The position numbers were made by a program, and so were the translations under genes. Shown in pieces: positions 8,639 to 10,093 of a stretch of 64,000 bases of DNA. Where the stretch lies: contig NZ_BPIJ01000001.1 of assembly GCF_026004055.1 (NCBI RefSeq), positions 1,550,001 to 1,614,000 on the forward strand, written 5' to 3'. The notes beneath the pieces were generated by a model. That model was not told the DNA's origin and ran no database searches. It saw only the letters and a program-made list of their open reading frames with translations. Source of the stretch: Meiothermus sp. (GTDB taxonomy: Bacteria > Deinococcota > Deinococci > Deinococcales > Thermaceae). Within the stretch, counting starts at the first letter, position 1. Each line of letters starts with the position of its first letter.

Positions 8639-8667
8639 GAACCTTACCCGCCCAGGGTAAGTGGTTC
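8639..8667 (+). terminator. Hairpin between nrnA and the SAM riboswitch
   Basis: GAACC-TTACCC pairs with GGGTAA-GGTTC across a five-base loop with a 2-nt bulge, 11 base pairs in all. Only a weak T-rich tail follows. It could terminate nrnA transcripts or form the 5' end of the riboswitch leader. Its last bases touch the riboswitch P1 strand, so the two folds may compete. Confidence 0.45.
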
Positions 8668-8820
8668 TTCTATCCAGAGCAGCAGAGGGAACGGCCCAAC
8701 GAAGCTGCGGCAACCTGCGGGGGATCATCGCCCATTACCGAAAAGCCCCCGCGCATGGTGCCAAATCCGCCCCGGTGTCGCTAGGCACAGCAATGACGTC
8801 AGGGGAAAGATGGAAGGAGG
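8667..8820 (+). ncRNA. SAM-I (S-box) riboswitch upstream of metY
   Basis: The S-box core elements appear in order: CCAGAGCAGCAGAGGGA, CGGCCCAACGAAGC, GGCAACC, GGTGCCAAATCCG, CAGCAATGACG and GGGGAAAGATGG. P1 is formed by CTTCTATC (8667-8674) and GATGGAAG (8809-8816), with one G-U pair. The 3' strand of P1 runs straight into GGAGG (8816-8820), the Shine-Dalgarno of metY. SAM binding would stabilise P1 and hide the ribosome site, so control appears translational: high SAM lowers MetY, and MetF through coupling. No terminator hairpin was seen between P1 and the ATG. Confidence 0.95.
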
Positions 8821-8824
8821 GTGC

Positions 8825-10093
8825 ATGGATTTTTCCAGTCTAGCGGTTTTGAGTGGGCTTCCCGAACAAGACCCCTATCACGCAGTGGGGGTGCCGATTT
8901 ACGCTACGGCAGCGTATGGGTTTACCGACCTGGAGGACGGCGCCCACAAGTTTGCTACCAATCAGGGCTACACCTACACCCGCATCCAGAACCCCACGGT
9001 AGCGGCCCTCGAGGCCCGCCTGGCCGCGCTGGAAGGCGCCATCGGAGCGGTTTGCCTGGCCTCGGGTCAGGCCGCGAGCTTTGCCGCCTTGCTGGCCCTA
9101 GTGCGCTCGGGCGACGAAATTGTGGCCAGCCCAGGGTTGTTTGGGGGCACGGTGGGGCTCTTGAACCAGGTGTTGGGTCTGATGGGGGTTCGGGTGCATT
9201 TTGTAGAGCCCGAGGTGGAGACGGTGCAGACCGCTTTGAACAAAAAAACCCGGGCCGTGTTTGTGGAAGTGCTGGGGAACCCATCGCTAAAGCTCCCCGA
9301 CCTGCAGGGGCTGGCGCAGCTTTGCGAAGAGCGCCGGGTAGCGCTGGTGGTGGACAACACCTTTGGCGCGGTGGGGGCCTTGGCGCGCCCGCTCGAGTAC
9401 GGGGCGCATGTGGTGGTGCACAGCCTGACCAAGTGGGCCAGCGGGCACGGCTCCATTCTGGGGGGAGCGGTGTTGTCGCGGGAAACCCCGCTCTGGCAGC
9501 ACTATCCGCAGTTCACCAACCCTGATGCCCAGGGCAAAATCCCTTTGGAACAGTTCGGGGCGCGATGTTTTCTGGAGCGGGTGCGCCAACTGGGGCTGTC
9601 GCTGGGCGGAATGGTGCTTTCGCCCTTTAATGCCTACCTGTTGTTCCAGGGCTTGGAGACCCTCGAGCTGCGCATCGAGCGGGCCTGTCAAAACGCCCTA
9701 ACCCTTGCCCGGTGGCTCCAGTCCCAGCCCCAGGTAGCCTGGGTGCGCTATCCGGGCCTCCCCTCCGACCCCGCCCACCCCAGGGCTGCCCGGTATCTAC
9801 GGAACGGGTTTGGCAGCATTCTGACTGTTGGAATTCGGGGTGGGATGGAGGGAGCCAGCCGCTTTTTGGCCCATCTGCGAATTATCCAGGCCCCCAACGT
9901 GGGTGATGCCCGCACCCTGGCGGTGCATCCCTGGACGACCACCCACGCCCGCATTCCCGAACCGGCCCGGCGGGCGGCGGGGGTGGGGCCGGAGATGATT
10001 CGCCTATCGGTGGGGCTGGAAAGCCCGCACGACCTCCAGCAGATGCTGGCTGAGGGTTTGCGGGCGGTGGAGTGGGTGGGTCATGAAGATTAG
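8825..10093 (+). CDS. metY: O-acetylhomoserine sulfhydrylase (MetY-type)
   Basis: The 422-residue Cys/Met-metabolism PLP enzyme has the PLP-lysine motif [12 protein letters not shown], the YTRIQNPT segment and the VDNTFG aspartate site. The insertion between the YP and FG segments ([13 protein letters not shown]) is typical of MetY rather than of cystathionine enzymes. It makes homocysteine from O-acetylhomoserine and sulfide. The ATG at 8825 follows GGAGG by four bases; an in-frame ATG at 8810 lies inside riboswitch P1 and the ribosome site, and is rejected. It overlaps metF by 11 bases, implying translational coupling. Confidence 0.93.

Follow-up and report, generated by a model that had tools for sequence, protein, structure and literature searches.

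The leader described here lies in a 64-kb stretch of Meiothermus DNA that was analyzed as a whole and is called the window below. A predicted promoter is followed there by a SAM-I riboswitch aptamer and by two overlapping genes. The features are as follows:

8604..8632, + strand: predicted promoter, TTGACG-17-TACCAT, the one site returned by a promoter scan of 8500-8900 (shuffle mean 0.1)
8638..8668, + strand: 5' hairpin at the predicted RNA 5' end, sharing C8667 (possibly also U8668) with the P1 5' strand
8667..8816, + strand: SAM-I (S-box) aptamer, RF00162, 70.4 bits, SAM binding predicted
8667..8674, + strand: P1 5' strand CTTCTATC (= CUUCUAUC), from sequence and covariance match
8778..8793, + strand: P4 tip with loop UAGGCACA on a short stem, a hairpin type found repeatedly in SAM-I leaders of Thermaceae
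8809..8816, + strand: P1 3' strand GAUGGAAG (= GATGGAAG), from sequence and covariance match
8813..8816, + strand: putative deletion junction GAAG, doubled in most genus relatives (end of P1 and start of GAAGGAGGG)
8814..8821, + strand: Shine-Dalgarno (SD) sequence AAGGAGGG, its first three bases within P1
8825..10093, + strand: gene of an O-acetylhomoserine-sulfhydrylase-like PLP enzyme of 422 aa (working name metY), TIGR01326
10083..10958, + strand: metF, TIGR00676, 339.9 bits, above cut-off, overlapping the metY end

Since the metY product scored 420.6 bits against TIGR01326, below the cut-off of 495.1, the name metY is used only as a working name. The overlap of metF with the metY end suggests that both genes are possibly coupled in translation.

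When the whole window was compared with Rfam by cmscan, RF00162 was located at 8667-8816 of the forward strand with 70.4 bits (gathering 44.4, E 2e-14), and this was the sole gathering-level match within the 64 kb. The covariance match spans model positions 1-108 of 108 and is therefore full length as well as above the curated threshold. The conserved core letters (AGAG, GAGGGA, GGCCC, CGGCAACC and GGUGCCAA) were matched in the alignment, where P1 closes the multi-helix core. The aptamer shows 125-138 identities of 150-153 columns with those of the genus relatives.

The P1 helix has 8 bp, including one G-U pair (U8671-G8812). GGAGG occupies positions 8816-8820, four bases follow (8821-8824), and the ATG is found at 8825-8827. 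The overlap between P1 and the SD is AAG (8814-8816), which represents 3/7 of AAGGAGG or 1/5 of GGAGG. Two further pairs, U8666-G8817 and U8665-A8818, could extend P1 to up to 10 bp and cover up to 5/7 of the SD bases, at the cost of the 5' hairpin. The end of the aptamer is separated from the ATG by 8 nt (8817-8824), a distance within the rule given in PMC2258182, by which a start codon located within 15 nt of the aptamer core end denotes direct regulation. A terminator scan of 8500-8900 identified no terminator-like site 3' of the aptamer; its only hit was the 5' hairpin, at 8643-8661 (shuffle mean 0.4). Transcription termination was rejected on this ground, and because the hairpin of the related leaders described below lacks a following U-run. 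These results bear out what an earlier note, made from the sequence alone, had proposed for this locus: a SAM-I aptamer, with the same boundaries as those given by the covariance search, whose P1 runs into the SD four bases ahead of the ATG, with no terminator behind it.

Concerning the 5' end of the RNA, TTGAC and TA[C/G]CAT were found in 20 of 20 aligned leaders, and transcription would be expected to start around 8639, at the base of the 5' hairpin. The outermost pair of this hairpin can be G8639-C8667, and A8638-U8668 is also possible, so the earlier note was right that the hairpin shares its last base with P1. In the genus alignment (14 rows, 11 distinct) 98.3% of its cells are paired. 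Its covariation support is modest because only 1 of 11 pairs changes on both sides, from A-U to G-C in 4 of the 11 distinct rows; sister genera show a different 5' hairpin. The competition with P1 that the same note had suggested is possible, but it involves only one or two bases of the 8-bp helix. The hairpin would limit the extension of P1 into the SD; protection of the RNA end, or the ending of read-through from the upstream gene, is just as likely a role as competition with P1. As a separate observation, the hairpin at 8643-8661 followed by TGGTTCTTCT resembles a terminator and might stop read-through from an upstream nrnA-like gene.

The P4 tip belongs to a hairpin type that we observed repeatedly. 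A hairpin with the loop U[AUG]GGCA[CUA]A and changing stems is present in or near P4 of 28 of the 146 SAM-I leaders surveyed (five duplicate fetches were dropped beforehand), L072, L033, L035 and L037 being examples; 27 of them belong to Thermaceae, and 18 of the 28 have it doubled in a row. The window copy has a perfect stem of 2 bp only and scored 17.7 bits in a model containing that copy (E 1.91, not significant alone); the loop-hairpin rule gives two background matches in the 64-kb window. Nothing significant was obtained with the hairpin model R1 elsewhere in the genome of the window (best E 0.229). In the search of that genome with the tandem-hairpin pattern, the allowed gap was smaller than the tandem spacing of L072, so that this known tandem was missed.

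The module between P1 and the start codon in related leaders

Of 111 genomes of the order searched for SAM-I, 99 have a match. Among the matches listed, orthologous leaders were fetched from 13 other genomes of the genus (14 leaders) and from four genomes of sister genera (five leaders). All 19 are longer than the window by 26-44 nt in the segment from the P1 3' strand to the start codon. Their order is P1 3' strand GAUGGAAG, AAGGG, a loop, CCCUUCU(U/C)C, a second loop and the SD, and the extra piece closes with GAAG or a similar run just before GAGGG. The 3' arm, CCCUUCUUC, pairs either back onto GAAGAAGGG, which comprises the last four bases of P1 and the next five, or forward onto the SD GAAGGAGGG, to which it is complementary with one G-U. 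In 17 rows, 98.7% of the cells are paired in the arm-P1 helix and 95.4% in the arm-SD helix. No double changes were seen in either helix in these rows, their arms being nearly invariant, and the pairing therefore represents conservation and not covariation; a covariation proof of the platform was not obtained. The loops between the arms differ in length and sequence. The case for this putative platform rests on its conserved arms beside variable loops and on the folding models.

The anti-SD segment present in the 19 orthologous leaders is absent from the window. In 11 of the 14 genus leaders a 4-nt GAAG ends P1 and recurs before GAGGG, and in L034 and L052, the nearest full comparisons, the two copies are 35-36 nt apart. 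Losing one GAAG together with everything between the copies yields exactly the GATGGAAGGAGGG of the window. The tree of gene DNA groups the window with L052 and L066, both module-bearing, in a three-member set with 96/97 support; the row nearest to the window is L052, with 89% DNA identity. Because L052, L066 and the sister genera all carry the module, a loss in the line of the window is the short reading, with one event. The window geometry thus appears to be derived, most plausibly by a deletion of about 35 nt. This predicted arrangement is known from one genome among the matches listed.

Two side observations may be added. Another ATG, located within the P1 3' strand (8810-8812), shares the reading frame of the gene and precedes the ATG at 8825 by 15 nt; it would be out of frame if the 35-nt insert of L034 were present. 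In addition, one genus genome (G038) has two copies of the gene on two contigs, with identical leaders (L058 and L059) and identical coding DNA. The folding models excluded L059 and also L076, which is near-identical to L075; L059 was likewise left out of A1, and L059 and L075 out of A2.

Folding of the related leaders and of the window

In isolated pieces of the relatives folded at 37 C, opening the SD cost 0.1-5.5 kcal/mol with the P1 strand free and 2.4-12.7 kcal/mol with P1 held, and holding P1 raised this cost in each of the 17 relatives at both 37 and 60 C. The full leaders at 60 C gave 2.0-8.5 kcal/mol in the free state and 4.3-9.8 kcal/mol in the held state, higher again in all 17. When P1 is held in the models, the arm pairs with the SD. 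As modelled, this rise in every relative fits a strand-exchange translational OFF switch. In the long fold of L034, the SD was paired in all three states, and switching was visible only in shorter pieces; the equilibrium picture is therefore not clean, and co-transcriptional folding may matter.

At 60 C, opening the AAGGAGG of the window without ligand cost 3.4 kcal/mol, a value that depends on the 3' end chosen; the folds compared were of stretches ending shortly past the start codon. With 75 nt of downstream sequence, the P1 probability in the free RNA was 0.00 and the coding region paired with the leader, supplying most of the pairing of the SD. With P1 held at 60 C, the GAGG that lies outside it cost 1.1 kcal/mol to open; a ribosome tolerating the adjacent P1 would therefore escape control. 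We compared the window with 15 other direct leaders of the order, drawn from a loose screen which 24 of 146 leaders passed, the window included, and which also admitted leaders lacking a convincing gene start. The difference between P1-on and P1-off at 60 C was -5.3 kcal/mol in the window vs -0.6 to -3.8 kcal/mol in these leaders, the ligand-free SD opening 3.4 vs 0.7-2.6 kcal/mol, and the SD bases within P1 three vs four to five. Ten relatives collapsed in silico gave 2.0-4.0 kcal/mol; since they resemble the window, the window shows no sign of a later adjustment to the deletion.

A second register of P1 was also found in the window models, in which CUUCU (8667-8671) pairs with 8816-8820 and UCCA (8673-8676) with 8811-8814. 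The two registers have nearly equal energies at 60 C (-46.1 and -45.9 kcal/mol), and the SD pairs of the alternative one reach probabilities of 0.32-0.49 at that temperature.

Overlaps between P1 and an SD were noticed in other SAM-I leaders as well. In a different family of the same order, the SD that P1 overlaps belongs to a very short frame (L142:333, L164:332, L167, L148 and L178). These frames read MRLSKTRQTKRMF, MIAGDRRSQTQQRMF, MIAGVKRSQKHHRMF, MTTANAKTRRMLSAA and MTHNNLTLRMS and may encode leader peptides that SAM controls directly; in L164 a frame recognized by eye as Cys/Met-enzyme-like comes after the short one. Thermaceae leaders with the overlap also precede sulfate-assimilation genes (L040, L061 and L069, with an APS kinase frame; L008, L011, L012, L022, L082 and L045). 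L040 heads APS kinase, and in L008 and L012 a frame of 48-49 codons comes first and an APS-kinase-like frame, judged by eye, second.

Readings of the window leader

The explanation that we consider probable, with some reserve, is that an aptamer-bearing leader lost its strand-exchange anti-SD platform when about 35 nt were deleted between two copies of GAAG, and that the remaining control is direct occlusion with a narrowed range. It is supported by the intact aptamer and by the module found in all 19 fetched orthologous leaders and in no part of the window. The ancestor-like leader would have combined the SAM-I aptamer with a platform in which, according to the models, P1 held by SAM sends the arm to the SD. 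The deletion would have removed the arm and both loops, fusing P1 to the SD. SAM would now stabilize P1 (8 bp, up to 10) and so keep the 30S subunit off an SD that is partly enclosed by the helix and abuts it. As the competitor that balanced P1 is missing, partial repression without SAM and a smaller dynamic range than in the relatives are expected. Judging from the sequence, P1 is the one conserved helix left that could shield the SD of the window. The earlier note had P1 itself blocking the ribosome once stabilized by SAM. Direct occlusion of the SD by P1 is indeed the only regulatory geometry left, whereas the blocking is uncertain, given that P1 covers 3/7 of the SD bases, that GAGG opens cheaply (1.1 kcal/mol at 60 C) and that an alternative register exists. 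From the models we expect a weakened and partly stuck direct occlusion, with loss of control as its main rival.

That rival, a doubtful reading that nevertheless deserves serious weight, takes the leader as a regulatory wreck: the aptamer would bind SAM, the SD would be about equally accessible with and without it, metY would be made at a constant low or middling level, and a paralogue under SAM-I control would carry the regulated synthesis. The small share of the SD in P1 (3/7) and the opening costs (3.4 kcal/mol ligand-free, 1.1 kcal/mol for GAGG with P1 held) are in its favor, as is the second SAM-I of the genome, which heads a metY paralogue that is a fuller member of the family (630.4 bits for TIGR01326, well above cut-off). 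The leader has also been lost elsewhere. In three of the 18 genus genomes (G028, G036 and G042, the last 85% complete) only paralogues with about 43% identity to metY were found, and the gene thus appears to be dispensable in the genus; G034 has a 77% orthologue without an Rfam SAM match upstream at E 0.1. However, the aptamer, P1, the SD and the spacing are intact in the window, and other leaders of the order show direct geometry as well. A relaxation of selection on the enzyme, looked for as a sign of decay, was not seen in pairwise comparisons with six relatives: dN/dS was 0.088-0.130, similar to that of other pairs and indicative of purifying selection. Apart from this question, the leader of the G034 orthologue (L184:1100-1560) keeps GCTAGGCACAGC, which is like the P4 tip, as well as AAGGAGGG, and is perhaps an eroded SAM-I leader.

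It is unlikely that the piece is missing through an error of sequencing or assembly, or through a mutation confined to one cultured strain, with the natural population still having the module. The arrangement does come from a single genome among the matches listed, and the piece holds an inverted repeat bounded by direct repeats, from which sequencing or culture can drop bases; against this, the assembly consists of three contigs, is 99.65% complete and 0.07% contaminated, and has the reading frame and SD intact.

The two registers of P1 raise the question of a leader that toggles. A single slippage deletion could have converted a three-strand translational OFF switch into a one-helix device in which the ligand-free register hides all of GGAGG and the SAM register frees GAGG. 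The sign or the set-point of control would then have changed in one step without any damage to the aptamer; we regard this as very improbable. Slightly less credible again is the register switch taken as an altered or inverted logic, with the P1 5' strand on GGAGG without SAM and the native P1 restored by SAM to free GAGG. It draws on the near-equal modelled energies at 60 C and on the SD pairs at 0.32-0.49, but the energy differences are within model error, the alternative uses up conserved aptamer bases, and SAM would still stabilize a helix adjoining the SD. The register is, moreover, not conserved beyond the genus, because the sister-genus strand GAUAGAAG lacks the required UGGA. Finally, a platform-free direct switch kept because it suits growth at high temperature, the compact design put forward in the earlier note, is hardly tenable: although the window does have this geometry and the order contains other direct SAM-I leaders, 17 related genomes (13 others of the genus and four of sister genera) retain the anti-SD platform at metY, the window form is read as a deletion, and its P1 does not show the weakening seen in the other direct leaders.

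Comparison with known systems

Changes of expression platform beside fixed aptamers are known mostly by inference from distant comparisons. The present locus offers a matched pair within one gene and one genus: promoter, aptamer, SD and enzyme are shared, and a platform of about 35 nt is present in one form and absent from the other. Two questions become testable with it, namely whether SAM-I regulation persists once the platform is removed and P1 is fused to the SD, and whether the strength of a P1 adjusted to strand exchange exceeds what direct control allows. In our search of the open-access literature, which is no proof of absence from print, neither SAM riboswitches of Meiothermus nor the loss of a platform by deletion turned up.

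The closest known arrangement is the direct translation attenuation by P1 and SD in SAM-I elements, where the RBS forms part of the P1 3' side, set out by Barrick & Breaker 2007 (PMC2258182). Like the elements described there, the window has its RBS in the P1 3' side, a start codon at no more than 15 nt and no terminator; it differs in having just 3/7 of the SD bases in P1 and in its derivation by deletion from a platform-bearing leader. The same authors report translation attenuation as most common outside Firmicutes, which makes the contrast drawn in the earlier note, that SAM-I switches more often act by termination, less telling. The strand-exchange metY leaders of Meiothermus and its sister genera share promoter, aptamer, P1, SD and gene with the window, which lacks the 26-44 nt anti-SD/anti-P1 module of the 19 fetched. 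In the Xanthomonas met operon, a SAM-I element likewise acts on the translation of methionine genes; as described in PMC7270179, it uses an anti-SD hairpin and senses uncharged initiator tRNA, whereas the window is without an anti-SD segment. In the Tte preQ1-I riboswitch, as treated in a 2024 review of direct occlusion (PMC10907184), one RBS base in the aptamer is reported as sufficient to block. There too the ligand-stabilized structure takes in no more of the RBS than its 5' base or bases, but the ligand and the fold, an H-type pseudoknot, differ from those of the window. Direct occlusion is thus a kind already known; what is new to us is this member of it and, above all, its origin by deletion of a platform beside relatives that keep theirs intact.
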